Virus record (IMG/VR): IMGVR_UViG_3300019757_000003
Coordinates: 50,271 to 114,270 of that record
Strand: one strand, 5' to 3'
Source of the DNA: a virus
Length of the DNA stretch: 64,000 bases
Shown here: positions 12,795 to 47,973 of the stretch, one piece after another
How positions within the stretch are numbered: the stretch's first letter is position 1
Layout: every line of letters starts with the position of its first letter
Position numbers and translations under genes: made by a program
The notes under the pieces: model-generated
The model's input: the letters and a program-made list of their open reading frames with translations, nothing else
Database searches by the model: none
What the model was told of the DNA's origin: nothing

Positions 12795-13928
12795 ATGAAA
12801 GAAAAGACAGATATAGTAGTAATTAGCCTCTTCGATGGATTAAGTGGTGCTCGTCTAGCTTTAGATGAAGTAGAACACCTAAATATATTGAGGTACTACT
12901 CTAGTGAAATAGATAAGTACGCAATACAAGTAGCAGACAATAATTACCCACAAGATACAGAGTATAGACTAGGGTCAGTAGTAGACATTGATACTGATAA
13001 GCTATTAGCAGAGATACATGAAGACTTTGGTCCAGATGTAAAGATTCTACTAGTTGGAGGTAGTCCTTGTCAAGGGTTCTCTATGGCTGGTAAACTAAAA
13101 GGTTCATCTACAAAAGAGGGTATTGATGTAACAGAACTAGAACAATACCTAGATTTGAAGGAGCAAGACTTTGAATTTGATGGACAATCCTATTTATTTT
13201 GGGAGTACATTAGAATTAAAGAGGCTATTCAACCAGATTATTGGCTATTGGAAAATGTTAGGGTAACTAAAAAGTGGTTACCAATGTTCAATAAAGCTAC
13301 TGGTGTAGAACCAGTGTTCATTAATAGTGAAGTTCTATCAGCACAATCAAGACCTAGGTTTTATTGGTCTAACATAGCTATAGAACAGCCAATAAATAAA
13401 GGTATCCTAATAAGAGACATACTACTAGATCTACCTATGGATAAGCCTCTTACTCCATTTATGTCAGGTGAATTTGATGGAGTTAGTAGATTAGACAAAG
13501 GCATATTCAATTTTACAGATTTACCAAAAGGAATGTGTCAAACAGTTGGTAGTGGTCATGGGAATAAGTACTTAATCAGTAGACCTTGTGAAATGTTACC
13601 AAAGAAAAAGAATAGTACTCACGTAGCAGATGCTGCTGATATTAAAGGTAACGAGAGCATTAAACGAGTCTACTCTATAGATGGAAAGTCACCGACTGTA
13701 ACTACTCAACAAGGTGGTCATAGAGAGGTTAAAGTACTAATAGACGAATGTAGATATAGAAAGCTAACACCACTAGAGTGTGAGAGATTACAGACACTAC
13801 CAGACAACACAACACAAATACTGAAACTTAATGGGAAAGATTTGATTAGTGATACTCAAAGATTTAAGATGATAGGAAATGGCTTCACTAGAGATGTTAT
13901 AGCACATATCTTTAAAGGTATTAAGTAA
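12795..13928 (+). CDS. DNA cytosine-C5 methyltransferase
   Basis: A 377-residue C5-MTase. SAM-binding motif I ISLFDGLSGA, catalytic motif IV GGSPCQGFSMAG (nucleophilic Cys), ENV in WLLENVRV (motif VI), motif VIII QSRPRFYW, motif IX YRKLTPLECERLQ and motif X MIGNGFTRDV. It should modify cytosine in phage DNA, most likely to evade restriction. It lies between the primase-like and SSB-candidate genes with no cognate nuclease nearby, so it is an orphan methyltransferase. Confidence 0.9.
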   Translation: MKEKTDIVVISLFDGLSGARLALDEVEHLNILRYYSSEIDKYAIQVADNNYPQDTEYRLGSVVDIDTDKLLAEIHEDFGPDVKILLVGGSPCQGFSMAGKLKGSSTKEGIDVTELEQYLDLKEQDFEFDGQSYLFWEYIRIKEAIQPDYWLLENVRVTKKWLPMFNKATGVEPVFINSEVLSAQSRPRFYWSNIAIEQPINKGILIRDILLDLPMDKPLTPFMSGEFDGVSRLDKGIFNFTDLPKGMCQTVGSGHGNKYLISRPCEMLPKKKNSTHVADAADIKGNESIKRVYSIDGKSPTVTTQQGGHREVKVLIDECRYRKLTPLECERLQTLPDNTTQILKLNGKDLISDTQRFKMIGNGFTRDVIAHIFKGIK

Positions 13929-15935: not shown

Positions 15936-16229
15936 ATGAGAGATTTAGTCAAAGAACTAACAATAGAGAGAGATGAGTTATCAAGTAAACTAGAAAAACT
16001 TACAGAATTTATTGATGGAGACATCTATAACACATTGACAGAATCATACCAATGTGCACTAGTTACACAGAGTACTATTATGGGTTCGTATGTAAACATA
16101 CTAAATACTAGAATTAAATTACTAGTAGATGGTAAAGTAACTCAAACACTATCTACCGATAAGTATAATGATAACTTTGATATGGCTGAAGAACGTGAAC
16201 TAAATAACGAAACAAAAGAAGGAAAATAA
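15936..16229 (+). CDS. Hypothetical coiled-coil protein (97 aa)
   Basis: Starts at ATG 15936 after AAGGAAAATA. N-terminal helix VKELTIERDELSSKLEKLTEF is likely coiled coil. The stop overlaps the next start as TAATG. Probably co-transcribed with the ribonucleotide reductase genes. Function unknown. Confidence 0.6.
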   Translation: MRDLVKELTIERDELSSKLEKLTEFIDGDIYNTLTESYQCALVTQSTIMGSYVNILNTRIKLLVDGKVTQTLSTDKYNDNFDMAEERELNNETKEGK

Positions 16230-16402
16230 TGACAAACTTTAACGCAACAAAACAACAAATGATGGATTGCTTAGACCAAATTGAAAAATATGAGGTTAAG
16301 CCAACTAAAGCAGAATCAGCAAGAATTAGAAACTCTTTAAATACTATTAAAAAAGGTATTACAGAAGCTAAACGAGACTTACTCACAGCAGATAAAGGGT
16401 AA
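16229..16402 (+). CDS. Small helical protein (57 aa)
   Basis: ATG 16229 sits in GAAGGAAAATAATG, the junction used repeatedly in this genome, and overlaps the previous stop. It reads MTNFNATKQQMMDCLDQI and ends LLTADKG before TAA at 16400-16402. Mostly helical, lysine-rich. It fills the gap up to nrdB exactly. No family recognised. Confidence 0.65.
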   Translation: MTNFNATKQQMMDCLDQIEKYEVKPTKAESARIRNSLNTIKKGITEAKRDLLTADKG

Positions 16403-16406
16403 TTGA

Positions 16407-17480
16407 TTGATAGAGGTTAGTAAGAAAAAGCTCTTCTCTCCAGATGCAGATAACAAGATTAAGATGTTTAGTGGGGACACTGACAACTTAATTGATATGA
16501 TTGACCAAGACTTACCAGATTTTTATCAAAGATACTCTGAGAAGATGTTTGCTAATAATTGGCATCCACATAAGTACCCAGTGTCAGAAGATATGGCAGA
16601 CTTTAAGAATCTGTCATCTATAGAGAGAGAGACTTTAGACAAAGCACTATCACACTTATCAGGACTAGATAGCTATCAAGTAAATAATCTACCTGAGATA
16701 GCTAGTAGAATTAGATACCCAGAAGTAGTAGGTGTACTATCTACGCATACAGCAGAAGAAAGTTTACACTCATATTCTTATGCGTATATATTTAATACTC
16801 TGTATTCAAAAGATGAAGCTAGAACAGTAAGAGATTTACTGAAGACAGACCCAATTATGAGAAATAGGGCTATAGATATTACAGATAGTTATGAGAATAG
16901 CTCAAAAGATGATTCACTACATACTATGTTACAAGTACTTCTTACTAACCTAACACTTGAAGGGATTATGTTCTACAACATATTTAACTTCTTCTTTTAC
17001 TTAAAGTACCAAGGTAAGATGACTAACACAGCAGTAGTTATAAGTTGGATCAAGAAACAAGAACTAGTCCATGTACAAATCTTTTTAGAACTTTTACTGA
17101 GATTTAAAGAAGACTACCCAGAAGAGTGGGATGAATCCTTTATAGCAGATTTTATTGAAACTCAAGTTAAACTAGAAGTGGTATATAGTACATATATTAT
17201 AGACCCTAGAATACCAGGATTTTCTAAAGAAAACATCGAGAAGTATACTAAATCAAGAGCTAATACTCTACTTAGGTTATTAAAGATAGACCATAAGATT
17301 CCAGATGCTTCCAACCCTTACACTCACTTAGAGAAAGTAAGTAATGTAGGTACAGAAGAGAATCCTGATGTAGGTTCTACAGAAACAGCTATATTTGAAA
17401 CTCATAACACAAACTACTTCAACCCATATGTAAAAATACAAGATTTCAAGGAGTTTGCAAATGCTAGTAACAAAAAATAG
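16407..17480 (+). CDS. nrdB: Ribonucleotide reductase, class I beta subunit
   Basis: A 357-residue radical-generating subunit that works with NrdA to make dNDPs. Metal ligands: Asp in SEDMADFKNL; Glu and His in EESLHSYSY, where the second Tyr of SYSY is the expected radical tyrosine; Glu in LTLEGIMF; Glu and His in KKQELVHVQ. The canonical tyrosyl site implies class Ia. The start is TTG 16407, 7 nt after AAAGGG; an in-frame TGA lies directly before it and the next in-frame Met is well inside the protein. It overlaps nrdA by 20 nt. Confidence 0.9.
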   Translation: MIEVSKKKLFSPDADNKIKMFSGDTDNLIDMIDQDLPDFYQRYSEKMFANNWHPHKYPVSEDMADFKNLSSIERETLDKALSHLSGLDSYQVNNLPEIASRIRYPEVVGVLSTHTAEESLHSYSYAYIFNTLYSKDEARTVRDLLKTDPIMRNRAIDITDSYENSSKDDSLHTMLQVLLTNLTLEGIMFYNIFNFFFYLKYQGKMTNTAVVISWIKKQELVHVQIFLELLLRFKEDYPEEWDESFIADFIETQVKLEVVYSTYIIDPRIPGFSKENIEKYTKSRANTLLRLLKIDHKIPDASNPYTHLEKVSNVGTEENPDVGSTETAIFETHNTNYFNPYVKIQDFKEFANASNKK

Positions 17481-19611
17481 TGGGACTACAGAGGAGCTAG
17501 ACTTCTCAAAGATAGAAGATATGATTAACTTTGCTTTTGAAGGAAGTGGCTTAGATAGTACTCAACTAATTCAGAAAGTTAATATAGCCTTCTATGAGGG
17601 TATTCCTACAAGGAGTATACAAGATTTAATTATCTATGAAGCTAGGTTATTCATTAAACCTGACCAACCACATAACTACAAATGGGCTGTTATAGTAGGT
17701 AGATTGCAAGCTACACAACTTCATGGAGATATTCATAAGAATACTGGATTTAATCAAGTAGATTTTGTAAAAGGGTACAAGCAGTTAGTTAAACAAAACT
17801 ACTACCAAAAAGATTGCTCTAAATCAACACTTAAAGAGCTTTTAAAGTTTATGGACTTAGAAGCAGACTTTACACAGCCTACGCAATCTATAGTATCACT
17901 TAAGAACACATATCTTATTAAAGACACTAAAGGTAATCATATTGAGTACCCACAATGGGCTGTTATGGCTGATGCTATTCTAACATCTGATGGTACAGTC
18001 TCTGATATTAAGAGAATCTATGAAGACACTTCTTCTTTAAGATTATCTCCAGCTACACCACCTAAAAAGAATTTACGAACTGGTGGTAATACAGCTAGTT
18101 GTTTCAGTATTATGCCAGAGGATAGCTTAACGGATATTATGAAAGCTGTAGATGATTCAGCACAGATAAGCAAAGCTGGTGGGGGTTTAGCTGTGTATGT
18201 CGGTAAGATTAGACCAAGTGGTTCTGCTATACAGAAGACAGGTAATGCTGCAACCCACCTAAATAAGTGGGTAAGATTCTTTGACCAAGTAGCTGGTACA
18301 GTAGACCAATTGGGGACTAGGAGTGCTGCTATTACAGTGGCAAATGATTGGTTTCATTATGACTTCTTAGAGTTTTTAGAGATTGGTACAGAAGATGGAG
18401 GAGACTTAAGACTCAAATCTTTTGATATTATACCTCAGTTCCTAATCAACAACTACTTTGCTCAAAAGGTTAAAGACAAGGAAGATGTGTACTTAGTAAA
18501 CAACTATGACTGTATAAAACATTTAAATATAGACTTGACAGAGCTTATTGATGAAGAGTTTAAAACAGCATATGAAGTAGTTCTACAGAACCTAGACAAA
18601 GTACAACATAAGAAAATAAATGCTTATAAATTATGGGTAGATATGTGGGAAGTTTATTTTAAAATAGGTAAGGTCAACATTACTGATAAAGATAATATAA
18701 ATACAAATAACTATCTTAAAGCTCATTATAAAGCACAAACAGCTAACTTATGCTTAGAGTCGTGGTCTATCAATACTAAAGAGTACTCACATACTTGCAA
18801 CTTAATATCTATTAATTTAGCTAAGGTTGTATTAAATGAGTCTCTTATGAAGAGAACTGTTAGAACAGCAGTAGATATATCACATAAAACACTTAGCTTA
18901 TCAAAATATCCTATACAAACAGCAGCAAATAGTGCAAGAGACTTACAAAATATAGGTATTGGAGTTATTGGTGGAGCAGATTGGTTAGCTTATAAGAATA
19001 TGACTTACAATGATGCAGGTCTTAAAGAACTATCCAGAGTAATGGAGATGATAGCATTTTACGCTTACGAAAGAAGTGTTGAGATTGCTGAGGAGAAAGG
19101 TCCTTATCCACTATACCATAAAGCAAACTACTCTAAGATGTTTAACAAAACACCTGAAGAACTCAATAAAGCAAGTCTAAATGGATTTGATTGGGTAGGT
19201 TTAAATAAAGATATAGTAACTAAAGGTATTGCTCATTTCTTGCTACTATCACCAGCACCTAACGCAGGAACTGGAGTAGTTATGGGAGCTAGTCCTAATT
19301 ATGGACCAGTAACCTCAACTTGTCACTTTAAAGATATGAAGAGTATTACTCCTATTATTGTACCACCTTATGCAGATGAGAAAGGTTTATTGTATAGAAC
19401 TAAAGGTTCATTTGATGGTATCTTCTTCTTAGACTTAACTGTAGCTATACAGCAATGGGTAGATACAGGTGTTAGTAATGAGATAGGTATTAATCCTGAG
19501 ATATTTAGTATGGTAGAATTTAGTGATAAATTACTAGACTACATTATAAATAAACAGATAAATGCTGTGTACTATATGAGTGAGACATCATGCTCAACTT
19601 GTGCTAATTAG
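17461..19611 (+). CDS. nrdA: Ribonucleotide reductase, class I alpha subunit
   Basis: A 716-residue catalytic subunit. Active-site features: first redox Cys in GNTASCFS, the radical-site cluster NLCLESW (Asn, Cys, Glu), the second redox Cys in YSHTCNLISI, and a C-terminal pair in SETSCSTCAN that relays electrons from thioredoxin or glutaredoxin. The N-terminal ATP-cone region is short. ATG 17461 is chosen over the TTG two codons upstream because AAGGAG lies 7 nt before it. It overlaps nrdB and is overlapped by the GTG start of the next gene. Confidence 0.92.
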   Translation: MLVTKNSGTTEELDFSKIEDMINFAFEGSGLDSTQLIQKVNIAFYEGIPTRSIQDLIIYEARLFIKPDQPHNYKWAVIVGRLQATQLHGDIHKNTGFNQVDFVKGYKQLVKQNYYQKDCSKSTLKELLKFMDLEADFTQPTQSIVSLKNTYLIKDTKGNHIEYPQWAVMADAILTSDGTVSDIKRIYEDTSSLRLSPATPPKKNLRTGGNTASCFSIMPEDSLTDIMKAVDDSAQISKAGGGLAVYVGKIRPSGSAIQKTGNAATHLNKWVRFFDQVAGTVDQLGTRSAAITVANDWFHYDFLEFLEIGTEDGGDLRLKSFDIIPQFLINNYFAQKVKDKEDVYLVNNYDCIKHLNIDLTELIDEEFKTAYEVVLQNLDKVQHKKINAYKLWVDMWEVYFKIGKVNITDKDNINTNNYLKAHYKAQTANLCLESWSINTKEYSHTCNLISINLAKVVLNESLMKRTVRTAVDISHKTLSLSKYPIQTAANSARDLQNIGIGVIGGADWLAYKNMTYNDAGLKELSRVMEMIAFYAYERSVEIAEEKGPYPLYHKANYSKMFNKTPEELNKASLNGFDWVGLNKDIVTKGIAHFLLLSPAPNAGTGVVMGASPNYGPVTSTCHFKDMKSITPIIVPPYADEKGLLYRTKGSFDGIFFLDLTVAIQQWVDTGVSNEIGINPEIFSMVEFSDKLLDYIINKQINAVYYMSETSCSTCAN

Positions 19612-34329: not shown

Positions 34330-35202
34330 TCATACTCCCATCTGGGTAAATAAATTATTCATTGAGTTAGCTGTAAATTTTTTACCATTACGTTCTCCAA
34401 CCCATCCACCAGAAGCAGACTTGTAATATGTCCAGTCATCCTTAGGTTGTGGTACATTAGATGGATCATATATATTAGGCACAATAGGTGTGTTACCTTG
34501 AACTACAGGACTAACAGTATTAGCATTGTTTGGTGTGTAAGTTTGATGATTTCCTCCGAATCTGGATTTCCAGTGATTTAGGTAGTCTTGAACTGTACCG
34601 TTACCTCCAGGTATATTACTTCTAATATTCTTCATATTTACATTACCTCCACTAAGTATAGCTTTAGCACCACCTAACCCCTGGTTGTGAGCTAACCAAA
34701 GGTTCATATTAGTAGGTTTATACCCTGCTTTAATTAGTCCTGCTCTATTATCAGCAGTAAACCTCTTAATCATATCCTCTTGTCCCTTAGGAGTTCTAGC
34801 ATACTCTTTAGTAATACCCATTTTTTTAATCATATCAGCTTCAGTGCTAGGTATAAACTGGTACTTACCATAAGCTCCAGAGGATTTATTATAAGCATCA
34901 TACTTACCTTTAGATTCCACATTAGCTAATTGCTTGAAATACTCATCTGTGTTTACATTTGTAGGTACTCCAGTGCCAGTTGGAGTGTTTGCAGGATTAG
35001 GTACTTGTCCTGGCACAACATTGGGTTGGGTTAAACCTCGATTAAAATTTAAAGACATATTACTTTGAGGAGTAAGACCTTGAGAGTAGATTGGGACAGG
35101 TGTTCTAGTAGGTTTAGGTGTAGATACACCTTGAACACCAAGGATTTTAGCTAGTGCACCTTGTTGGTTTTCTCTAGACATATTTCGTTGTGGTTGTAAC
35201 AT
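34330..35202 (-). CDS. Lytic transglycosylase-like virion protein
   Basis: A 290-residue protein. A low-complexity Pro/Thr/Asn-rich N-terminal ~90 residues precede an SLT/lysozyme-like domain: LANVESKGKYDA supplies the likely catalytic Glu, followed by GAYGKYQFIPSTEADMI and LWLAHNQGLGGAKAIL. The C-terminus has another small domain (WTYYKSASGGWVGERNGKKF). It probably opens peptidoglycan during genome entry. It lies just downstream of the virion polymerase genes. ATG 35202 with TTGGAG upstream is chosen over TTG 35220. Confidence 0.7.
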   Translation of the reverse strand: MLQPQRNMSRENQQGALAKILGVQGVSTPKPTRTPVPIYSQGLTPQSNMSLNFNRGLTQPNVVPGQVPNPANTPTGTGVPTNVNTDEYFKQLANVESKGKYDAYNKSSGAYGKYQFIPSTEADMIKKMGITKEYARTPKGQEDMIKRFTADNRAGLIKAGYKPTNMNLWLAHNQGLGGAKAILSGGNVNMKNIRSNIPGGNGTVQDYLNHWKSRFGGNHQTYTPNNANTVSPVVQGNTPIVPNIYDPSNVPQPKDDWTYYKSASGGWVGERNGKKFTANSMNNLFTQMGV

Positions 35203-35231
35203 ATGACTCCAATATAACAAATTTTAAAGAT

Positions 35232-35558: not shown

Positions 35559-38513
35559 CTAACCAAACACCTGCCAAGGAGCAACCATATTAGGATTCCA
35601 AGGATCAAATTGAGTACTATCTCTCATACCTATTAGAGAATTACCTATATGAGCATTACCATAGTTAGTAAGTTCATTCATACCAACATAAGTAGCTCCA
35701 CCAGTAACAGCTTTAGTATAAGCTAATGACCATAACATCTTCTGTATTCTAAGAAGGAAATGTGGAAACATAAACAAACCTAGAGACTTCCATTGTTCAA
35801 TTTGTTCAGGTAAAGCATCTCTATAATCAATAAATGAACCATGAACAATCTCAGTAGCAATATCACTCATTTCTTGGGGACTTAAATTAGGTTTAGATTG
35901 CGACATTTGGTCTATTAAATGTTTATAGAGAGTCCACTTACCAATCAAATCCACCATAGTAGTAACAGCACCACCATACCTAACTAGCTCAGATTGACCA
36001 GGAGAAGCTAAGATTTCACTAATCAATTTTTGATGTTGTTTAGTATCTTTAATAGCATTAAACTTCTGGCTAAGTCTGGTAAGTTCAGATTTGAGAGTAC
36101 CATTACTAGTTACTTTAGAATCAGCATAAGTAAGTATAGAAGCTAGAGACAGTCCAGTATTGGACATAGAATCCATTATTTTTACAACTGAAGGATAATC
36201 ATCGACTTTACTAAGGAATCCATCTAAACGTCTCTGAAGACCTTCATTAGCTTCTCTATCTCCAATTAACATTTGAGTAGATAAAGTTTGATTGAAACCG
36301 TTATCCTCAGCTACTTTAAATGGGTGTACTTCAATAGTAGCGTCTACTTCATCTAGCTGAGACTTTAGAGTCTTATAAGTAGAGTCAGCTTCATCAGTAC
36401 CTTTCACCATCATACTTAACATAATTTGTTTCTGTCTTAATTGGCTAAACTCCTTATGATACCTGACAGCTTCTTTACCATACTTAGCTGCACTAGTAAG
36501 AGGTACTTGATGAATAGCTAGAATACTACCAGTAGATATAGCATCCATCATAATTTTGGTAGGATTTACTATAGCCCAATGAACAGCTTCCATAGTAACT
36601 AAATCTCGGAGTAGTTGTTCTACTTTATGAGCATATCTATTCTTATTATTAAATAGAGGTTTATTAGAATAGCCAAGCATCTGAGTCTTTAAGTCTCTGT
36701 GAACCATAGTAGCATACCTAGGTAGCTCAAGAACACTAGTAGCATTACCAAAGTTCTTATCTTTAAGAGTTCTGCCTTTATTAGTAGTAGACATATAATG
36801 TTTCTTAATCAAAGGGTAGTCTTTAATATCTAACAATGAATCAGCACTAAAGTCAAAGTTAAGGAACATAGGACTAATACCCTTTGCTAAACCTTTCTCA
36901 ACCTTATCTGCTTCAGTAGGCAAATAGACCTTAGTGGTTTGATTATCTATAATGTGTTTAATTGTAGACATAGTTTGTAGTATCTCTTCATTATGAGCAT
37001 AAGACCTATGTAATACACTAGGAGTTTCATTATCTACTTCCATCTTATCCAACATCTTCTGAGTCAATCTGAGAACGTACCGAGGTACTTTGTCATAATG
37101 TCTCACTTCGACATTGTTGGACTTCAAATCAAACTTATACTCTAAATACTGTTCATGAGATAAATGGATACCATCATCAGGAATAGTAGTATTAGATATG
37201 ATACCAGCAGTCTGACCAAAATCAGTTCTCTCTCTAATAGCTACACCAATTTGACCTTTACTATACTCTTTGATAATAGTCCATTTGTCTTCAGGTTTAA
37301 GCTTATCCACATCAGCTTGAGATAGTAAAGGTATCTTATCATAGTTCTTTTTAAAGTGTACACTTCTACCTGTTTTATTATCTAACTTATACATAGACTT
37401 ACCTCTTAAATCTACATCAATTTGACTTCCTACAGCAGAAGTAGCTTGAGATAACATAAGAAATTCATTATAAGAACCTTTAGATTTACTATCTTTCTTA
37501 AATTTAGATAAAGTATCTAATTGTTCCTTACCACCTAATTTTAATTGATGTAAAGCTACTATCTTCATAAAGTCTTGTAAATACTTACCACCAAGGTTAC
37601 TATAAACAAATCGTTCATTAACACCAGTGTCCACAATATCTGCCAAGTCTCTAGTATGGTAAAACTTAGCTAAATCTTCAGCAGACTTACCTATACCTAC
37701 CTCTATCATCTTAGTATTGGCTATACCAGATTGACTTACAAGCTCTTTAATCTGCTCATCTATAGCAGACATAGGGTCAGAACTACTTAAGGCTTTATCT
37801 AGATTCTCTTGGTCTATTAAATGAATATGTGAAAAATTGAATAAAGAAGAAATATGGTCTAGTTGTTTCTTAGTGTAGTCTTTAGTAACTTCTCTGAATA
37901 GTCGTTTAGACTTAGTGAGCATCTCTATATCTATTTCATTCCTAGCCCTAGAAGCTTTAGTTTTATCTGACAGATAAGTGCTAATTTGTTTATAGTCAAT
38001 ACCAGTCTTGAGCTTCATATATATCAAGAGTTCATTAATAAGTTCACTAGGAGTTTCTCTATCTTTAAGAGCATTTACTGCTTTGTGATAGATACCCTCA
38101 GCATTACTCATCTTATTCTTATGGAAGTCTTGAACCCAATTACTATTAACTACACCTAAAGCAGAGTTAGAAATACCTTTACCAACTCCTTTAGTCAAAT
38201 CACTACCTATAATAGCTTTAATAGGAGTAATAATACCTAAAGATATAGCTGACCTAGTAAGACTATTAGCTGTCTCAAATATACCATTAACAGGAGCTAT
38301 ATACGGAGGTTTTTGACCTTTGTACATAACATGAGATAGAGACCTATCTAAATCTGTTTTAGGTTTATTAGCCTCAGCTAGTACCTCATCATATAGTAGA
38401 TTTACTTGTTTAGTGACCTCAGAAGAAGATAACTTAGGATTATCCTTCTTTAGTTGTTTACTCATTATTTCTAGCAGTTTAACCTTATCTACATCTTTTA
38501 TACTACAGCTCAT
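35559..38513 (-). CDS. vRNAP-linked large virion protein (possible detached C-terminal domain)
   Basis: A 984-residue protein immediately downstream of the virion RNA polymerase. Its ATG (38513) overlaps the polymerase stop as TAATG, with GAAGGA 8 nt upstream, so the two are translated in tandem. Mostly helical, with hydrophobic stretches (LTRSAISLGIITPIKAIIG, LVTMEAVHWAIVNPTKIMM) and a C-terminal FMFPHFLLRIQKMLWSLAY. N4 vRNAP is about 3500 residues and its last third is outside the polymerase core. Here 2664 plus 984 gives 3648, so this may be that part made as a separate protein. It should be packaged and perhaps injected. Homology is inferred from position and size. Confidence 0.6.
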   Translation of the reverse strand: MSCSIKDVDKVKLLEIMSKQLKKDNPKLSSSEVTKQVNLLYDEVLAEANKPKTDLDRSLSHVMYKGQKPPYIAPVNGIFETANSLTRSAISLGIITPIKAIIGSDLTKGVGKGISNSALGVVNSNWVQDFHKNKMSNAEGIYHKAVNALKDRETPSELINELLIYMKLKTGIDYKQISTYLSDKTKASRARNEIDIEMLTKSKRLFREVTKDYTKKQLDHISSLFNFSHIHLIDQENLDKALSSSDPMSAIDEQIKELVSQSGIANTKMIEVGIGKSAEDLAKFYHTRDLADIVDTGVNERFVYSNLGGKYLQDFMKIVALHQLKLGGKEQLDTLSKFKKDSKSKGSYNEFLMLSQATSAVGSQIDVDLRGKSMYKLDNKTGRSVHFKKNYDKIPLLSQADVDKLKPEDKWTIIKEYSKGQIGVAIRERTDFGQTAGIISNTTIPDDGIHLSHEQYLEYKFDLKSNNVEVRHYDKVPRYVLRLTQKMLDKMEVDNETPSVLHRSYAHNEEILQTMSTIKHIIDNQTTKVYLPTEADKVEKGLAKGISPMFLNFDFSADSLLDIKDYPLIKKHYMSTTNKGRTLKDKNFGNATSVLELPRYATMVHRDLKTQMLGYSNKPLFNNKNRYAHKVEQLLRDLVTMEAVHWAIVNPTKIMMDAISTGSILAIHQVPLTSAAKYGKEAVRYHKEFSQLRQKQIMLSMMVKGTDEADSTYKTLKSQLDEVDATIEVHPFKVAEDNGFNQTLSTQMLIGDREANEGLQRRLDGFLSKVDDYPSVVKIMDSMSNTGLSLASILTYADSKVTSNGTLKSELTRLSQKFNAIKDTKQHQKLISEILASPGQSELVRYGGAVTTMVDLIGKWTLYKHLIDQMSQSKPNLSPQEMSDIATEIVHGSFIDYRDALPEQIEQWKSLGLFMFPHFLLRIQKMLWSLAYTKAVTGGATYVGMNELTNYGNAHIGNSLIGMRDSTQFDPWNPNMVAPWQVFG

Positions 38514-41500
38514 TACTCGCATCCTTCTTGTACATTTTTAATAGTAGTATACAATATTTCTTTAGTGTTCTTGGTTTGTATAGTACCTAAAGACTCTTGT
38601 TCTTGTTGGTTATCAGGTTTAGGCTTACCACCTTCTTTACTAGATTCAAATATAATATTCTCAAGAGACCTATTAAATACTTCAACAGTAATATTAGACA
38701 ACTCTTTACCTGTAATAGCTTTATAAGCACTACTAAGAATATCTTTGATAGACTTCATAAGATGTTTAACCATTCTATCAGAGAAGATACCAAGACTAGA
38801 CTCAGTTTCTTGAGTAGTTGCATTATTACTTAGATAATCCCTAAACTCTTGGTTACTCCTATATATAGCTACAAACTCAGACATAGCAGCAACTCTTTTG
38901 GAGTCATCTTCACCATTACCAAGTTCTCGATGTATGTACTCAAATCTATCATGCAAAGACTGACCTAGTATATCCCCATCTGCTGTAGTTCCTTTAGTAT
39001 CGTCTAATATGTCAGGTAATTTATTCTTAAACTTAACAAAAACACTAGATAGTACTTTAAAAGCATTACTTTGCTTAGTAGACTCCATAAAAAATTGGTT
39101 TCTAATATACTCAGCTGTAACACTATGTTGTACCTCATGGTCAATATACTTTAAGAAACTCTTAGTATCTGAAAAGGTAATATCATTGCCTACAAATATC
39201 TGCTCATCATTAGGATTAAACTTAAAAGCTTTTCCAGAGACTAAACTGTTATCTGAATTTAAAGCACTCTTAATGTTCTCAATGTAAACCTTAGTCTCTT
39301 CATCAGTATCCTCAATACTATTAAGAAAATCAGTACCCTCACTAACTTTTAGAGCTTTATCTTTCGACTTTAGAGCTTGTTGAAAATCATATATAAATGA
39401 ATTCGTATCCTTTTTAACAACCTCACCAAAGTTATTAACAATACTAGATAATTGGGCTATACTAGTAGTGTCTTTGTCAGCAAATCTCTCAGCCATAGTA
39501 TCTTGAGACACTTCTGTAGGCTTATTAGGATTGTACTTACCATCTGTGTTAGTTATCTTATTATACTCATGAAAACCTTGAGATACATCAATTACTTTAA
39601 AGTCTTGTTTACTGTACTCCTCAGAAGTGTTCTTAAGAACTAAGTCAATATTATTAGCTAAATCATAGCCTACAAGAGGTACATTAGTAACAGTCTCATC
39701 CAAGTCTTTAGCTTCTTTGTTCAGAGAAGTCATAAAATCATCAATAGCTTTAGAAGACTTTACTTGACCTCTAGTCATGCCTTTAAGGACAGTACCATCA
39801 GGACTAGTGTAGTCATACCCTATTTGACCCTTTAGTGACTCAGATGTCTCCAATTCTTTATGAGAAGGGCTACCATCATTATCCCTTTTAAGAGCAAGTT
39901 CATATGTAAACTCATTACTAGGTAATAAGGTTAAAGTCTTATCCTCTCCTACTTGCTTACCATCTTTATAGATAGAAGCTGTTAAACTAGTAATTTCCTT
40001 AGTTTTAAGAGACTTACCTGAGGTAGTAGAACTCATTACAATATAAGGTTCACCACTAGCAACTAAAGACTTTAACTCTTTATAATGTTGAGGAGAATTT
40101 TCGTACTTCTTCTTAGGTACAACAGACTTTATATCAGGAGCAAAAGAAACTACTGCTTTACGTTGTTCCTTTTGAATTCTCTCAAGAGCCTCAGATTTAG
40201 AATCCTTATCTTTACTAGCATCACTCTGTTTACCAAAATCCCGTTTCTTATATACTTTATAATTAGTAGTATCGATAGGTCCACTAGGCATCTCAGACTC
40301 TGAAGGTAATTTACCGAATATAGAGAAATCCTTATTAGCTCTCAACTCTTCAATCTTAGCTTCTTTACTTGCTAATCTCTTATCTTTATTGATAGTAATA
40401 TTTTTAATAGCTTTTTCTAGTTTACCAACCTCACTACTACCTTCGTTAATCTCCTTAACTTGCTCTAAAGTATACTCAAGTTCTATCTCCATTTCACTAA
40501 GTATGTCATAGTATTGGGCAACATCTAAAGTAGCTTCATGATAAAACTCTTTGTACTTTAAAAGAAACTCAGGAGAACCTTTAACAGCATCATGAATAGC
40601 AATAGAACCTAAACCTTTGTATATACCTTTATCTTTAAAGTACTTAAAAGTTCTCTTAAAAGCAATAAGAAGTATAGCACTATCAATAGCATGTAAAGCT
40701 ACAACAGAAGCAGAGTTCTTGTTAACATTAGACATTAACTTAGTAGGTACTACTCCAGCATCTTCAGCTATTTTAGTCATATCTTGTTCAGTAAGCATTA
40801 ACTTCTCTATTGAAAAGTTAGTATCGGGATCAATATCTCCTAGAACTTCTTCAGTAGCTTTTAGGGTTACATCTAAAGGGTTTCTCATAGATATTATATG
40901 ATTTACACCAGAGCTCCTAAGAAATGATCTAGCACTTGTAAGAACCTCATATGCCTTATCTATAGTACCTTGTACAGCATTCAAGTCAGCATTAATGTTT
41001 TTAAGACCATCACTAAAGATAGTACCAAAGTTTGCACCAACTTTGCTAGAAACCATCTTAAATGAAGCATTTGTATCTTTAACATCTTCTAATTTAATAT
41101 CTAAACTCTTAAAAACAGCTTCTGCATTAGCTTTATCAGTACCTGAACCTTTAAGATAAGCTTTCATCAAATCTATACCTATTTCTTTACCAAGACCTGC
41201 AATTAGAGACTTAATCTTTTGACCATAGGAGTTCGTCATAACTGGATACTTAGCAGTGTCCCTAATCTTTCTCTTATGATCAGGGTTGTTTATATCAAAT
41301 TCACCATCACCTTCAACATTAGCAATAAATTTAAGAATAGCTGAAGTGGCTTTATTCTTCTTTTTGATGGTAGTGTCGTTAAGATCAAGAGAGTTACGCT
41401 TATCAATAATGTTCATTACTTCTTTAATAAGAGCTAAATAAGCATCCCCACCACCTAAAGTAAGTTCATCTAGTTTATCAGACAACCTAGTAGGTCTATC

Positions 41501-44500
41501 TTTATCTGATTTACTCTCGCCATCAACTACTTCTGATTTAGCTTTAACACCAATGTAGCCTTGAAAGTTAGCAATTTTATTAACAATACCAGAAGCAGAA
41601 GCATCAAATTCAGGGTTGAAGTTAGTGGTAATCTTTAAATCAGACCACATAATATCTTTATCAGGGTTAGCTTCTTGTTCAGCTTTTACAGCATTACGAA
41701 CATCTATAATACCTTGAATAGCAGTTATAATTTCAGCAACACTATCACCTTTCTGTAGAATTTTCTTTGTATATTCTCCATTATAGACTTCAGAAGACAA
41801 CAAAGATCTAATACCATTGTTAGAGTAGTGAGTAAGAATATCCTCAAGTGCTTTAGATTCCTCAGATGAATTAGACGGAGATAGTATGTCATCTACAGTA
41901 ATCTCAAAATCAGTACTAGATAGAGTGTCAGCTAAGTTAGCTAAAACAACTAAGTTTTCTTCCTTAGTATTAGTAGTATGTCTAGTATTTAGAATAAACC
42001 TAGAGACAATCTTATCTGCTTGGAAGTCTAAAGCAATGTTCTCTAAATGTATTCTATTATTCCTAGCAGAGAAGTACTCAAAGAATTGTCTCCTCTTCTC
42101 GTAAGGTTCAAGAGAGTCATTATTTTCAAGCTCTCTAATGTAGTCTAAAATACTATCAGCATTACCTTGTCTACTAACTAGTTGACCTATCTCTTCCTCT
42201 CTAGTAATTTCAAGACCACTCTTCTCTATATTAAGTCCGAAGAAATTCTTTATCCATATATCTTTCTCACTATTACCTAAAGAAGATGTAGTCCTACCTC
42301 TTAGAGTTTCAACAATATCAGTAAGAAGACCATAGAATTCATTGTCTATCTCTAATGGTTCACTACGTATATCCTTAATAATAGAACTCTGTTCTGAGCT
42401 GTTCTCATTACCATCACTTCTAACAGGACCTTTAGGTTTTGTGGTTGAAGGAGTTTTAGAACTGGATGGATTCAATGCAGCTAAAATTGGTCTAAATGGA
42501 GTATCAAATTTACTTTTATAGAACACAGAAGCTTCAAAAGATCTATCATTCTTATCTACATCTTGGAACTCTTCTTTTAAAAGAATGACATCATCTTTAC
42601 CAAGAGACATATCAGGAGTTACTTTAACTTGTCCAACATCTTTACGTTCAGCTAAAGCATAGTGCGTAATACCAGACCCATCATCAGGATTATACTCAGA
42701 CAAATATCCTAAAGTATTAAGTAATTTTATACCAGTATCACCTATCTTAATGTGGTAAGAAGAAACAGCGTTATCCTTAGTACCTTCCTTAGCCACAACC
42801 TCTTGACCATAACTATGAGTAAAACTACGTCCAATCTCTTTTAAAGTGTCCTGTTTTGTAGCGTAATGAGTGGACATCTCAGCATCTTTATCAGTAGAAT
42901 TTTGGGTTCTATCAATATTTGATCTCATATTCTTAAGAACACCACTAATAGATAAAATAGCTAATCTCATAGCTTTAGGTACAGACAATGGATCTGATTT
43001 AGGGAACATAGGTAACTCACCTTTATCAACTGCTGCTTCTACTCTTGTAGTTAAGTTTCTTATTATCTCTTTATCAGTATCTAACATATTCCAAGACTTC
43101 TCTTGGATATTATGTGCTTTATTGTTTGCAGACTTAGTACTGATAGCACCACGTTCAAGAACATCTTCAAAAGCTTCATCAGTAACAATCTCAGTGACAT
43201 ATTGTTTTACACGTTTTTCAGATTGTTTAATCTTCTTTAAGCCAGACTTATTTCTACTAATCTTCTCGTTAGGATCTCTATCATCTTCAGCTAAGTCTTT
43301 AGTGGTACTCTTCAGCTCCACGTTAGGATCAGGGATATTGTGCATAGCTCCACGTTCAGTAGTAGCACTTTTCAAGTAACTAAGTAGTACATCTCTAGCC
43401 TTAGTAGATATAGAACTATTCTTTATAGAATTGGTTAAAGAGTCTTGACTTATACTATTAGAGTTGAAGTTCTTAATAGCACTATGTAAAGTATTATATT
43501 GGTCAGATTGAGATAACTTACCAAGTTCTGTAACACTTAGAGTCTGACTTCTTAAAAGTTTATCAGTAGAAGCTTTAATGTCTTCTGACTTAGACTCAGT
43601 AACTTTACTAAGAGTTGTATTCTTATACTTATGAGTCTCAAAGTTCTCGAACTTCTCACCTAACTCAACTTCAGTGAGTTTATCAATATCAGCTAACTCA
43701 TTTACAGTAGCCTCAGGTTGCTCTTCAGTGCCTTTATTTTCTTCATTAGAATCAGTTGTTGGTTCAGTAGGTTTAACCTCTTCAGTAGCTTCCTCAGTAG
43801 TATTAGTAGAAGTAGTTTCAGGTTCTACTTCAGGTTCAGTAGTTGTTTTTTCATCTACTCCAAAACCTAAACTTTTAATAGTCTCTAATCTTTTAGAATA
43901 CATCTCCTTAGCTTTATCATTAAGTCTTACACTAGAATCAGTATCGTTTATTATAGATTTCAAACTATCATAAGCTTCTTGGTCAGGTAGTTTAGTATTA
44001 TTTGATAAAATATTGGTTAAAGAAGCTACTCTATCTTTACCTGTCAAGTCTTTAAGTTTAGCAATGTCCTCAGAAATAGGATTTTGAGTGAATACTTTAG
44101 ATTCACCTTTCTCTCTTTTAGCTATAACTTTGTTTAGCATCTCAAGAGTTTTGGTACTAGACTTAGTAGGTTCTTTAGAACTTAGTGCAGTAACAGCTTT
44201 TCTGAGCTTTTCAGTAGAGTATTTTTCTAACTCTTTAGTAACTGCTCTATTATTCAGACCTTGTGAAATTGACTTAAATCCAGGGATTTTAGAAGTCTCA
44301 GTAATGTCTTTAATATTTGTAGTACTTAAATCAACATCAGAATCAGTTTTAATCTTACTTTCTGTACTTGTTTTATCTTTACTTAATTCCCTTTCTTTAA
44401 TAGCTATAGAGTTTTCTTTTCTAGTTTGAATAAGATTCTTCAATTCTTGTGTTTTAGCTTCATCAGGACCTGATTTAAGCTCAGTTCTAATCTCTTGAAT

Positions 44501-46507
44501 ACGATTCATTGCTTCATCATTTAAAGCCTTTAAATCAGCTATTTGGATGTCAGAAGCTTGATTAGAGAACTTTAAGTCGTTATCTGATAACGTTTTATAA
44601 GTTTTGTCATCAATAGCTTGATTAACATCCTTAAATGTACCAGGAGTTTCCACAACAGCTCTCATCTGTGCACCAGCACCAATTCCACCTAGACCACCCA
44701 TTCTAGCTTCTTGTTGCTTATCCTCGTCACTAAGAACATCAGATACAGTCTTACCACCAACACCAACATTAGCACCTAATATCTCACCCCAAGTTTGAAT
44801 GTACTCTTGAACACCCTCAACCCCACCTGCAGCACCAATAGCAGAAGCTTTAGCTACTAATTTACTGATAATAGGTTTTTGTTCAGATTTAGTTAGACTT
44901 TTAAAAGCTTTCTTAAGAGCACCCACTTCTCCAGTAATACCAGTAGCCTTAGAGAATGCCATTTTATCTATTGATAAAAGAACTAATTGAGTAGCATAAA
45001 CACTAGCAACTTCAAACATATCAACATCAGGATCTTCTCCAGCTTTGAGTTTCTCAGCTATCCTATCATCTAGTACATTATTAGTCATAGCACCTACAAC
45101 AGTATGGAAACCAGAATTTTTAGCAAAATGATCTAAGGTTTTAATCAGGGTAACATTATTTTGGTACTTCTCATACTTACTAATCTCTTTAGCTGTCATT
45201 AATTTTCTAGCTCTATTCTCCAATTTAGCTATATGTTGAACTGAAGCACCTGTTTGTCTAGCTTTTTCAGTAGCTTTAAGTAACCTAGAAGCAGCAGTAA
45301 ACTTCCCAGTACCTACAGTCATACCAATCATCATAGGTAAAGACTCAGCCATAGTATTAGGGTCTGTTAAAACTCCAGTAATAGCATCAAAGTAGTTACC
45401 ATTCTTCCAATTGGTTGCAGCATCAGTTAATACTTGAGTAGATTTAGTTCTATCATAACCAACCCATTTATCTATATTCTCTTTTTTCTTAACATCATTT
45501 AGCATAGTGTTATCACCAGGAGTAACAACATCTAATATAAAGTCAGCAGTGTCTACAAGTAAACTAACAGTACCAGAAGCTAATGCACCAACAACACTAT
45601 CAGTCATACCAGCTTTGTATCTAGCCCTAGCTATATTAGTAAGTCTCTCTGAGTATTCTCTATTCTTATCATAGTCTGCTTGGGTCTTACCTTCATCTAC
45701 ACCTAATAAATCCTTATTAAGTAATTCAGTATAACCATCACCAAAGTTTACACCAGAAGCTTTATCCCTAGAAACGTACTTACCATCAGGAGTTTGTACT
45801 CCACCTACATCAAGAGTTCTAGCATCTAAAACACCTTCTGAAGCATTCCAAGTTTTCTCCCATTCTTCAGCACCAGTAAATCTCTTCTCTTCAACTATCT
45901 CATAACCATCTTGTATATCCTGAGCAATACCTTTAAAGTTATATCTATCATTAGCTCCTACCTCAGCAAAACCTGTCTTATATAGGAACTTCTCTGTACC
46001 ATCAGGATTGTAACCGTCAAACTTCTTTAAGGTATAGACAGTACCACCTGCATTAGGGTCATGTTTAGCATTATGATACTGATCTATAAGTTCTTTAGTT
46101 GTAGTATTTCTAGCAGCAATAAAGTCTTTATTGGACATAGAGTATCGTTTACCTTGATTCTCAGCATCAAACTGAGCTCTATCAAGCATTTCCCCTTGAC
46201 CAAAGTCAGCTATATTCTCAGAAGCTTCTAGTAACCAATCAGCTCCTCTACTAACAGCATTAGCAGCTTCTTTAGCTCTAATCATAGCATTACTATCGTG
46301 TATTAAGCTACCATCATTCTCGTACTGTAGTTCACCAGTTCTCATAGCTATCTTACGTTGTAGTTCTCTAGCTCTCTCTTGTTTTAATAAATCTTCCCCA
46401 CTATCCACAGGGAGCAATCCTGTACCATAATTATACAAGGAAGACGAGTCTTGATTGTACATCCTAGGGTCTGCAAAAGAAGCTTGTAATCCATCATATA
46501 ATCCCAT
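38513..46507 (-). CDS. Virion RNA polymerase with C-terminal HExxH domain
   Basis: A 2664-residue N4-type virion RNA polymerase, packaged and injected to transcribe early genes. The N-terminal ~870 residues have no motif seen, then a Thr/Glu/Pro-rich linker (about 883-935). Polymerase motifs: TxxGR-like SARNNRIH (R1485), motif A NPEFDASASGI (D1635), motif B with R1749, K1753 and Y1761 (the T7 spacing of +4 and +8) in YPVMTNSYG, and motif C IAIHDAVKGS (D1973). R1485-D1635-K1753 spacing is close to that of N4 (R424, D559, K670). At 2457-2461, HEVQH gives a zinc-metallopeptidase HExxH, with a downstream AMSEFVAIY that could supply the third ligand. Ribosome site AGGAGA. Confidence 0.88.
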   Translation of the reverse strand: MGLYDGLQASFADPRMYNQDSSSLYNYGTGLLPVDSGEDLLKQERARELQRKIAMRTGELQYENDGSLIHDSNAMIRAKEAANAVSRGADWLLEASENIADFGQGEMLDRAQFDAENQGKRYSMSNKDFIAARNTTTKELIDQYHNAKHDPNAGGTVYTLKKFDGYNPDGTEKFLYKTGFAEVGANDRYNFKGIAQDIQDGYEIVEEKRFTGAEEWEKTWNASEGVLDARTLDVGGVQTPDGKYVSRDKASGVNFGDGYTELLNKDLLGVDEGKTQADYDKNREYSERLTNIARARYKAGMTDSVVGALASGTVSLLVDTADFILDVVTPGDNTMLNDVKKKENIDKWVGYDRTKSTQVLTDAATNWKNGNYFDAITGVLTDPNTMAESLPMMIGMTVGTGKFTAASRLLKATEKARQTGASVQHIAKLENRARKLMTAKEISKYEKYQNNVTLIKTLDHFAKNSGFHTVVGAMTNNVLDDRIAEKLKAGEDPDVDMFEVASVYATQLVLLSIDKMAFSKATGITGEVGALKKAFKSLTKSEQKPIISKLVAKASAIGAAGGVEGVQEYIQTWGEILGANVGVGGKTVSDVLSDEDKQQEARMGGLGGIGAGAQMRAVVETPGTFKDVNQAIDDKTYKTLSDNDLKFSNQASDIQIADLKALNDEAMNRIQEIRTELKSGPDEAKTQELKNLIQTRKENSIAIKERELSKDKTSTESKIKTDSDVDLSTTNIKDITETSKIPGFKSISQGLNNRAVTKELEKYSTEKLRKAVTALSSKEPTKSSTKTLEMLNKVIAKREKGESKVFTQNPISEDIAKLKDLTGKDRVASLTNILSNNTKLPDQEAYDSLKSIINDTDSSVRLNDKAKEMYSKRLETIKSLGFGVDEKTTTEPEVEPETTSTNTTEEATEEVKPTEPTTDSNEENKGTEEQPEATVNELADIDKLTEVELGEKFENFETHKYKNTTLSKVTESKSEDIKASTDKLLRSQTLSVTELGKLSQSDQYNTLHSAIKNFNSNSISQDSLTNSIKNSSISTKARDVLLSYLKSATTERGAMHNIPDPNVELKSTTKDLAEDDRDPNEKISRNKSGLKKIKQSEKRVKQYVTEIVTDEAFEDVLERGAISTKSANNKAHNIQEKSWNMLDTDKEIIRNLTTRVEAAVDKGELPMFPKSDPLSVPKAMRLAILSISGVLKNMRSNIDRTQNSTDKDAEMSTHYATKQDTLKEIGRSFTHSYGQEVVAKEGTKDNAVSSYHIKIGDTGIKLLNTLGYLSEYNPDDGSGITHYALAERKDVGQVKVTPDMSLGKDDVILLKEEFQDVDKNDRSFEASVFYKSKFDTPFRPILAALNPSSSKTPSTTKPKGPVRSDGNENSSEQSSIIKDIRSEPLEIDNEFYGLLTDIVETLRGRTTSSLGNSEKDIWIKNFFGLNIEKSGLEITREEEIGQLVSRQGNADSILDYIRELENNDSLEPYEKRRQFFEYFSARNNRIHLENIALDFQADKIVSRFILNTRHTTNTKEENLVVLANLADTLSSTDFEITVDDILSPSNSSEESKALEDILTHYSNNGIRSLLSSEVYNGEYTKKILQKGDSVAEIITAIQGIIDVRNAVKAEQEANPDKDIMWSDLKITTNFNPEFDASASGIVNKIANFQGYIGVKAKSEVVDGESKSDKDRPTRLSDKLDELTLGGGDAYLALIKEVMNIIDKRNSLDLNDTTIKKKNKATSAILKFIANVEGDGEFDINNPDHKRKIRDTAKYPVMTNSYGQKIKSLIAGLGKEIGIDLMKAYLKGSGTDKANAEAVFKSLDIKLEDVKDTNASFKMVSSKVGANFGTIFSDGLKNINADLNAVQGTIDKAYEVLTSARSFLRSSGVNHIISMRNPLDVTLKATEEVLGDIDPDTNFSIEKLMLTEQDMTKIAEDAGVVPTKLMSNVNKNSASVVALHAIDSAILLIAFKRTFKYFKDKGIYKGLGSIAIHDAVKGSPEFLLKYKEFYHEATLDVAQYYDILSEMEIELEYTLEQVKEINEGSSEVGKLEKAIKNITINKDKRLASKEAKIEELRANKDFSIFGKLPSESEMPSGPIDTTNYKVYKKRDFGKQSDASKDKDSKSEALERIQKEQRKAVVSFAPDIKSVVPKKKYENSPQHYKELKSLVASGEPYIVMSSTTSGKSLKTKEITSLTASIYKDGKQVGEDKTLTLLPSNEFTYELALKRDNDGSPSHKELETSESLKGQIGYDYTSPDGTVLKGMTRGQVKSSKAIDDFMTSLNKEAKDLDETVTNVPLVGYDLANNIDLVLKNTSEEYSKQDFKVIDVSQGFHEYNKITNTDGKYNPNKPTEVSQDTMAERFADKDTTSIAQLSSIVNNFGEVVKKDTNSFIYDFQQALKSKDKALKVSEGTDFLNSIEDTDEETKVYIENIKSALNSDNSLVSGKAFKFNPNDEQIFVGNDITFSDTKSFLKYIDHEVQHSVTAEYIRNQFFMESTKQSNAFKVLSSVFVKFKNKLPDILDDTKGTTADGDILGQSLHDRFEYIHRELGNGEDDSKRVAAMSEFVAIYRSNQEFRDYLSNNATTQETESSLGIFSDRMVKHLMKSIKDILSSAYKAITGKELSNITVEVFNRSLENIIFESSKEGGKPKPDNQQEQESLGTIQTKNTKEILYTTIKNVQEGCE

Positions 46508-46515
46508 TTAGTCTC

Positions 46516-47973
46516 CTATTTTCTTGACTCTATTAACGAATCATAGTTAGCCATCTTCTTAGCATGTGCTTCGTTAGCTTGTTTGAGAGCGAGTTCAGCA
46601 GCCTTCAACTCAGCTGGAGTTTTAGCATTTTTTAGATTGGATTTTAGAATAATCATGTCACGTTTAAAAGTACGTTCATCCCTCAAATTCTGCTGAGATT
46701 TAACTTCTTTCCCTAACGTAGCTTGTTCAAGATTAAATGCTTTTTGTTCAGCACTAGCAACTTTATTAAACTTAGCTATTCTAAGATTCTTTTGTCTATC
46801 TGTCAATGTAGAAGTTTTTAGACTATCCTTAAGAACTTTTCTAGCTTCACTAATAGACTTTTTAAACTCAGTTGATGTGACTCTACGGTCGGTAGTAGTT
46901 TTAGGAGCTTTAGCTACAATATCTTTAATAAGCTCTTTAGACTTAATAACATCAGGATCATTAGCAAATTCAGGACTATCAGGATTATTAATAGTTTTAC
47001 TATTAGCTTCTACTACTTTTCTAGCCTCTTCCTTAATTCTAGCTTTCTCAGCCTCTGCTTCTTTCTTCATTCTAGCAGGTTCATCTCTAGCCATTTTATC
47101 TACTTTTCCTAATGTGCTCAGATTAGAGTCCTTAACCTTATCTTGGTAAGCTCTGCTCTCCTTGTCCCTAAAACTCTTAATTATATCAATACCCTCTGGA
47201 GAAAGTCTATCAACACCTTTAGGGAGTATGTCCTCTACATCTACACCAGATCCTACAAACCCTCCAAGGTAATTACCGACACTACTAAGAAACCTAGAAT
47301 CATCAGTTAAAGGTTGTACATCAAGAGGATTATCAGTACCCTGAGTTAGTCTAGCTTGTTGAGTTGCTCCTATATCTCTAAGTGCAATACGTTTCTCTGC
47401 ATCAGTCATATTAGGGTCACTTTTAATACCATTATACATAGCTAAAAACTCAGATTGTTCTGGTACATTACTTACTTGAGGCACAGTAGGTAAATTCCCA
47501 CCTAACTTCATAGGATTACCATTTTGCTCTCTTCTAGCTATCTCCTCATCTAAAGCATAAATAGCAGGAGGTGTATTATCTACAGTAGTAGTACGAGGAA
47601 TGTTTATATCTCCAACAGCAGCATCAGCAGCAATTATGTCATCTTGTCTGGTAATACCCTCATCATATCTACGTTTACTCTCCAACCTAGCAGCCTCTCT
47701 ACTAGCATTTGTAGCAGCTAGGGCATCAGCTCTATACTTCATATCCTCACTTCTATTCTTAGCAGCTAATTCTAAAGCTAACTTCCTATTAAGAGACTCT
47801 TGTTTATATCGTTCAGCTTGAGCAATAGCATTCATTTTAAGGTTAGCCTGAGCTTGTTGTCTATCAGAATATCTACCAAGAGCATTAGAAATAGTTAAAT
47901 CTCTATCTTCCATAGACACACCTCTACCACCAAAGTTTACACCAGCCATTCTATCGTATGTAGATGAGCCCAT
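46516..47973 (-). CDS. Internal virion protein, coiled coil (485 aa)
   Basis: Located next to the virion polymerase gene, in the place of the N4 gp51/gp52 virion proteins. Glycine-rich N-terminus (GVNFGGRGVS), then very long charged helices (EAEKARIKEEARKVVEANS, AELKAAELALKQANEAH) typical of internal or ejection proteins. Starts at ATG 47973 in a TAATG overlap. Function by position only. Confidence 0.55.
   Translation of the reverse strand: MGSSTYDRMAGVNFGGRGVSMEDRDLTISNALGRYSDRQQAQANLKMNAIAQAERYKQESLNRKLALELAAKNRSEDMKYRADALAATNASREAARLESKRRYDEGITRQDDIIAADAAVGDINIPRTTTVDNTPPAIYALDEEIARREQNGNPMKLGGNLPTVPQVSNVPEQSEFLAMYNGIKSDPNMTDAEKRIALRDIGATQQARLTQGTDNPLDVQPLTDDSRFLSSVGNYLGGFVGSGVDVEDILPKGVDRLSPEGIDIIKSFRDKESRAYQDKVKDSNLSTLGKVDKMARDEPARMKKEAEAEKARIKEEARKVVEANSKTINNPDSPEFANDPDVIKSKELIKDIVAKAPKTTTDRRVTSTEFKKSISEARKVLKDSLKTSTLTDRQKNLRIAKFNKVASAEQKAFNLEQATLGKEVKSQQNLRDERTFKRDMIILKSNLKNAKTPAELKAAELALKQANEAHAKKMANYDSLIESRK

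Follow-up and report, generated by a model that had tools for sequence, protein, structure and literature searches.

An N4-type virion RNA polymerase encoded by two overlapping genes, with cysteines at the broken ends of its chains and those of split relatives

Results

The window, i.e., the whole 64,000-nt stretch of DNA analysed here, makes up the final 64 kb of a virus record 114,270 bp long and carries two overlapping open reading frames (ORFs) for a virion RNA polymerase (vRNAP) on its minus strand. The first vRNAP chain (38513..46507, 2664 aa) contains an N-terminal domain (NTD), the RNA polymerase (RNAP) and the C1 zincin, and the second (35559..38513, 984 aa) contains the C2 domain; counted from its first ATG, the second ORF covers 35559-38522 (987 aa), and from the ATG at 38513 it encodes 984 aa. 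The junction of the two ORFs reads AAGAAGGATGCGAGTAATGAGCTGT. The TAA stop codon of chain 1 (38515-38513) overlaps the ATG of chain 2 (38513-38511) within a TAATG on the minus strand (38511..38515), and a Shine-Dalgarno-like AAGGA (38522..38526, minus strand) is located 8 nt ahead of that ATG. When the junction was read directly, the chain 2 frame was found to have its own TAA stop ~24 nt upstream of the start, and no slippery heptamer was present in the short stretch shared by the two ORFs; a programmed frameshift is therefore unsupported at this junction. The window vRNAP is produced as a pair of polypeptides, NTD-RNAP-C1 and C2, whose genes overlap and are likely to be translationally coupled. 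A search for the exact junction did not find a second assembly containing it. A preliminary description of the locus had placed the polymerase core in the 2664-aa ORF, had the 984-aa ORF begin at the same point through TAATG with GAAGGA before it, and had judged the summed length of 3648 aa usual for a vRNAP. All of these points held, the sum (2664 + 984) lying inside the range of the single-chain vRNAPs in our set (2657-4093 aa).

The late genes of the window are on the minus strand and include those for portal (phrog_1216, E 6e-143), a tape measure-like protein (phrog_2120) and the major head protein (phrog_1357), the last followed by several structural genes, a gene for a 485-aa protein (46516..47973, minus strand) and then the two vRNAP ORFs. 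This gene order from portal to vRNAP (window 57687 down to 35559), all on one strand, matches that of N4. The 485-aa protein occupies the position of N4 gp51, the periplasmic tunnel ejection protein; the assignment rests on position, homology to gp51 was not shown, and the protein has no cysteine. Between 46516 and 57000 (minus strand), the part of the portal in this range, the tape measure-like protein, the major head protein and the other structural ORFs of at least 250 aa contain zero cysteines. The vRNAP genes are followed immediately, in the same orientation, by a gene for a 296-aa transglycosylase-like protein (34330-35220, phrog_4067, E 7.5e-14); the N4 ejection proteins are reported to be without peptidoglycan-degrading activity. 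Elsewhere, the window encodes a C-5 cytosine DNA methylase (12795-13928, plus strand), with a gene for a family A DNA polymerase (7034-9613) and those for ribonucleotide reductase (16407-19611) nearby.

In chain 1, four minus-strand features were mapped: the NTD (44414..46465, residues 15-698, by HMM), an acidic low-complexity linker from NTD to polymerase that is unbroken in the window (43730..43825, residues ~895-926), the RNA polymerase core with its catalytic residues intact (39842..42442, residues 1356-2222), and the HEVQH zincin motif of C1 (39125..39139, residues 2457-2461). The core matches phrog_2206 "virion RNA polymerase" (E 1.1e-8). The catalytic residues D559, R666, K670 and D951 of N4 mini-vRNAP (the N4 letters at these positions agree with the numbering) are kept in 53/53 aligned cores, that of the window included, and the H, E and H of HEVQH are invariant in 19 relatives. 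The C1 model was of low confidence (pLDDT 63) and had no significant PDB match in the fold search. Pfam detected no family in chain 1 at E 0.1, tblastn of chain 1 against phages returned nothing, and the NTD family of the window grew to 23 members without its HMM ever recruiting N4. The domain HMMs were iterated, so that their late E-values are inflated.

Chain 2 matches in tblastn the C-terminal part of annotated vRNAPs, i.e., those of PT11-V19 ("RNA polymerase", E 4e-17), R22Y (E 4e-16) and KPP21 ("virion RNA polymerase", E 6e-3), and an HMM seeded with chain 2 recruited the C-terminus of N4 gp50 in the second round (E 9e-12). The AF2 model of chain 2 (pLDDT 70, pTM 0.71) had N4 vRNAP gp50 as its sole significant match in a Foldseek search of 350,542 PDB chains (9pnt, E 3.4e-9; 9pnr, E 9e-9). 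The global TM to the N4 fold is low (0.23), and the match therefore indicates homology, not superposition. Searches of PDB sequences by phmmer with both chains, and with a profile of the C2 alignment, found no relative, and viral contigs scanned with either protein alone gave no useful relatives. An HAD_2 match of chain 2 (E 0.0018, below cut-off) was dropped, since it lies in the N-terminal helices and contradicts the C2 homology. The 984-aa protein is a homologue of C2, the large, alpha-helical last domain of N4-type vRNAP, and the window pair is an N4-type vRNAP by homology and domain content, not by single-chain state. Its packaging, ejection and transcription from hairpin promoters are inferred from sequence alone.

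The N4 vRNAP domains are NTD (1-906), RNAP (1007-2101), C1 (2124-2375) and C2 (2376-3500) (PMC12633501), and in these terms the window break falls between C1 and C2. The preliminary description had taken the 984-aa protein for the split-off C-terminal part of vRNAP, to be checked against that part of N4, and this idea held by tblastn, HMM and structure prediction; the alternative, a separate gene resembling nothing in N4, failed on the C2 homology to N4 gp50. Its view that the split parts the polymerase from the C-terminal part had to be refined: only C2 is separated, and the C1 zincin stays with the polymerase. The cysteines at the chain ends, which had not been noticed there, are in our opinion the most informative feature of the locus.

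Relatives were gathered by a portal-based scan and a C2-alignment scan, and their vRNAP domains were mapped with purpose-built HMMs. They include both fused and split versions, which answers the earlier question of whether relatives have a fused gene. Single chains are found in N4, KPP21, G028, G030, G033, G036, L137, L138, L140, L143, L147 and L149, while 39 split genomes, that of the window included, are broken between NTD and RNAP, between RNAP and C1, or between C1 and C2, with two to four chains each. The window break, C1 from C2, is shared by G001, G027, L139, L187 and L150; RNAP is parted from C1 in AD45, G006, G007, G008, G014, G016 and others, and NTD from RNAP in G019-G021, PT11-V19, R22Y and many marine contigs. 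Three or four chains are present in G001, G002, G003, G005, G010, G015, G017, G022, G026 and L150. Chain starts were picked by position and Shine-Dalgarno match; Shine-Dalgarno sequences of at least 4 bases stand at 37 of 48 tabulated junctions, compared with 15% of internal ATGs. Most adjacent junctions have gaps of -11 to +29 nt, and the frames are mixed (14 frame 0, 13 frame +1, 21 frame +2). Since junction frames differ among genomes, a conserved frameshift is excluded. A tree of 53 polymerase cores requires at least 6, 3 and 4 state changes at the three boundaries (at least 13 in total); it is a quick tree with long branches, and the counts are approximate. The gene break in the vRNAP family is real and recurrent at three domain boundaries.

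The closest relative, G001 (IMG/VR 3300003873_000011), also carries C2 as its own ORF (977 aa, 56% identity, MAC start). Comparison of the two C2 genes gave NG86 dN 0.38 and dS 1.14; the long ORFs are intact and under purifying selection. It differs from the window in having four chains (1117, 1818, 1230 and 977 aa), with the NTD also detached and all end cysteines matching. Its NTD chain aligns with residues 20-894 of window chain 1 (73%) and its polymerase chain with residues 927-2623 (48%); because the matches end at 894 and restart at 927, G001 is cut exactly in the acidic linker that is continuous in the window. The additional 1230-aa chain (L135 6318-10010) lies inside the vRNAP string, has a zincin-like HEAIH and carries cysteine at both ends; stretches related to it are present in chains of G010, G002 and G008.

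Among isolates, the Alteromonas phages AD45-P1 to P4, PT11-V19 and R22Y resemble the window in having two adjacent vRNAP genes with end cysteines (AD45, 2481 and 1409 aa; PT11-V19, 1000 and 2082 aa; R22Y, 1008 and 2083 aa); unlike the window, they are broken between RNAP and C1 or between NTD and RNAP, not between C1 and C2. One common split is found in all four AD45 isolates. In their annotation the break appears as a potential frameshift, or the first chain is called hypothetical: in RefSeq NC_021532 (L191 30624-42306) the AD45-P1 vRNAP region is left without a CDS and marked "potential frameshift", whereas it contains two intact ORFs of 2481 and 1409 aa with end cysteines, and the R22Y vRNAP was given as 2083 aa with the first chain missed (PMC11705849). 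A survey that dropped proteins below 2500 aa blamed the split vRNAPs of AD45-P1 and pSb-1 on gene-calling mistakes or read-through, and joined them (PMC10654107). In pSb-1, vRNAP is represented by three ORFs without end cysteines, the second beginning mid-sequence, and here the break is likely a sequencing artefact. The record of this Shigella phage (L198 7364-8583, L199 5194-15982) has both the tape measure gene and vRNAP annotated in pieces, probably as a result of sequencing errors.

The two vRNAP chains of the window contain only two cysteines, one on each side of the break: the C-terminal Cys of chain 1 (VQEGCE-stop; TGC codon at 38519..38521, minus strand), 2 residues from the C-terminus, and the N-terminal Cys of chain 2 (MSCSIK; TGT codon at 38505..38507, minus strand), at residue 3. 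Single-chain vRNAPs have 0 Cys in 24/24 cases (12 of the main set including N4, and 12 diverse isolates). The 12 isolate vRNAPs add up to 41,274 aa with 0 Cys, vs 1.05% Cys in the replication proteins of the same phages, and the proteins in the gp51 position of 11 isolates also have none. In the 39 split genomes, Cys was present on both sides of 51/51 junctions, 1-6 residues from the C-terminus in 51/51 upstream chains and at residue 3-7 in 53/53 inner N-termini (the raw census gave 53/54; the L187 first chain, actually an outer start, was mislabelled by a length threshold). Middle chains have Cys at both ends. The outer ends lack it (0 of ~50 N-termini and 0/70 C-termini), and only 2 internal Cys occur in 205,712 residues of split chains. 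G008 and G022 have extra internal Cys. Exactly 2(n-1) Cys were counted in 37/39 strings. Among other ORFs of the same loci, used as control, Cys was found in the first 8 residues of 5/123 (4%) and in the last 8 residues of 13/123 (11%). The end cysteines are encoded by TGT (87) more often than TGC (17). The cysteines are strictly placed at the broken vRNAP ends. We did not find a paper on a cysteine-free or disulfide-linked vRNAP in the open-access literature searched; an older mention for N4 may exist.

Six strings ran past the DNA in hand, their last complete chain having an end Cys, and all six were completed by extension. The advance prediction held in 6/6: the next chain begins with Cys, and a C2 chain lacking a C-terminal Cys closes the string. 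The extended strings reach four chains (G022: 2713, 1293, 987 and 1337 aa) or ~8.1 thousand residues (G017). In a fresh test set of 56 dereplicated new loci, six new splits had Cys on both sides (L212, L231, L243, L266, L272 and L279), five further downstream chains, whose partner lies beyond the contig or is not a direct neighbour, had an N-terminal Cys, and another ~19 complete single chains had no Cys; L225 and L226 were left out of this count for N bases or broken frames. The rule is not a by-product of start/stop overlap, because it holds in some fresh splits whose partner genes are 0.1-2.9 kb apart (0.6 kb in L272, 2.9 kb in L266). L212 is an N4-like contig (1256 and 2558 aa, with end cysteines) binned in a Candidatus Bipolaricaulota MAG.

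One locus, L267 (3729-13498), breaks the rule: it is split into 1092 and 2164 aa without end cysteines and has one internal Cys. It may be an exception or a sequencing frameshift, and remains unexplained. Another break without end cysteines, in L218, has an N base at that point. The divergent C2-like giants L230, L234, L273 and L277, three of them without detectable polymerase, contain Cys, which sets a phylogenetic limit to the Cys-free rule.

Two strings hold unusual members. In G017 (~8100 aa), the second of three chains (L117/L194), flanked by the NTD-RNAP and C2 chains, is 3840 aa of unknown content with Cys at both ends and HExxH at 3125. In G002, a 204-aa multi-Cys ORF, possibly a homing endonuclease, separates the NTD chain from the RNAP chain (positions 16135-16749 in the joined L196/L107 stretch), and the end cysteines of the flanking chains persist despite the insertion.

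Discussion

We propose that a disulfide links the two vRNAP chains of the window head to tail, the C-terminal Cys of chain 1 being bonded to the N-terminal Cys of chain 2, and that the resulting string is the functional unit. We regard this as likely, although it is inferred: no disulfide was observed, and what is shown, all from sequence, is only the pairing of single end cysteines. N4 vRNAP is thought to cross the tail as beads on a string, and its C-terminal domain binds the polymerase weakly and autoinhibits transcription (PMC12633501); unpublished data cited in PMC4496689 assign the N4 NTD to injection and the CTD to encapsidation. If the domains are packaged together and exit in order, the disulfide would stand in for the peptide bond lost by the gene cut. 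This disulfide would form after the chains have been packaged next to one another and the virion has left the reducing interior of the cell. It would hold the domains in order during passage of the protein along the narrow tail and across the oxidising periplasm, and its reduction in the cytoplasm of the host would then detach the polymerase from the C-terminal domain. As each broken end has a lone Cys and the protein is otherwise free of Cys, only the right bond could form. The timing of the bond, and any importance of release from the C-terminal domain for transcription, are inferred and not shown. A recognisable glutaredoxin or thioredoxin gene is absent from most split genomes, the window included (AD45 has a thioredoxin), and neither family tracks the split; oxidation and reduction would therefore rely on the environment and the host.

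N4 gp50 (Schitoviridae; PDB 9pnr, 9pnt, 11gp, 2po4) resembles the window vRNAP in its catalytic residues, C1 HExxH and C2 fold and in closing the portal-capsid-ejection operon, and differs in being one 3500-aa chain without Cys, where the window has two chains with Cys at each broken end. Interchain disulfides are known in phage particles of Milano (PMC10811340), including Cys3 bonds, and crAss001 (PMC10172136), where they stabilise tail sheath, tube, baseplate or capsid/tail parts (in crAss001, the tail); unlike the proposed string, they do not join the pieces of an ejected enzyme end to end.

The rival that survives best, which we still consider unlikely, is that the end cysteines serve otherwise, i.e., in homotypic disulfides between vRNAP copies, a shared metal site or thiol docking to a virion protein. 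In its favour, sequence cannot reveal which Cys pairs with which, and N4 virions carry 4 +/- 1 vRNAP copies (PMC12633501). Against it, Cys occurs only at break-facing ends, one per side, with the 2(n-1) count met in nearly every string, and a metal site or docking thiol need not vanish exactly where the domains are fused, as happens in every single chain.

A further, very unlikely alternative is that the chains act as independent subunits without any covalent link, C2 serving in packaging or regulation and being held to the polymerase by non-covalent contacts. In N4, the CTD does associate with RNAP non-covalently, tightly in some arrangements and loosely in others, and the domains are also observed separately (PMC12633501), but this reading leaves unexplained why otherwise Cys-free proteins have cysteines only, and nearly always, at their broken ends.

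That there is really one gene, and that its break reflects an error of sequencing or assembly, a programmed frameshift or read-through of a stop, is all but excluded for the window and refuted for the family as a whole. Such artefacts do exist (the pSb-1 ORFs without end Cys, the N at the L218 break), and the window junction is in no second assembly. However, the break recurs in relatives with differing frames, Shine-Dalgarno sites, overlaps and gaps, four AD45 isolates agree, and the long ORFs are intact under purifying selection; paired cysteines cannot be created by error, and the artefactual breaks in pSb-1 and L218 lack them. Programmed frameshift or read-through was rejected on the spread of frames 0/+1/+2 (14/13/21) and of the gaps at most adjacent junctions (-11 to +29 nt).

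A nucleotide-level pattern, in which TGT near the stop and start is a translation-coupling signal, is just as improbable. The codons do adjoin stop and start, and TGT outnumbers TGC, as expected at low GC; yet both codons are used, always in frame and at varying distance, the pattern survives the separation of partners in L272 and L266, and the starts of the other genes in these loci do not show it (5/123). A split intein was rejected, as Pfam found no intein family (none at E 0.1 in chain 1 and only the weak HAD match in chain 2) and the cysteines, within 6-7 residues of the ends, leave no room for an intein half beyond them.

Conclusions

The window vRNAP is a known kind of protein in a variant architecture, and the disulfide string that we prefer for it is a likely mechanism, strongly patterned and predictive but inferred. 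In a bolder reading, toward which we lean only slightly, N4-like phages have repeatedly cut their injected polymerase into two to four genes and replaced the lost peptide bonds by disulfides between newly gained end cysteines; the result would be a string that remains intact both extracellularly and in the periplasm and is taken apart by reduction once in the cytoplasm of the host, where the autoinhibited polymerase would also be set free. In some phages this string would carry passenger chains (the 1230-aa chain of G001, the 3840-aa chain of G017).

For N4 it is still unresolved how an enzyme of 3500 residues crosses a tail channel of ~35 Å and gains activity inside the host. The breaks fall at the bead boundaries of N4 and show which domains fold and work apart, while the cysteine rule implies that the pieces must stay connected and hence that exit order matters. 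The rule also explains why split vRNAP has passed for an annotation error, and it suggests a redox-cleavable linker for protein delivery. The end cysteines provide a sequence signature for finding further members of the string, for instance the uncharacterised chains of G001, G017 and G022, and the absence of Cys from the vRNAPs of 12 diverse isolates is a testable constraint on passage through the periplasm.
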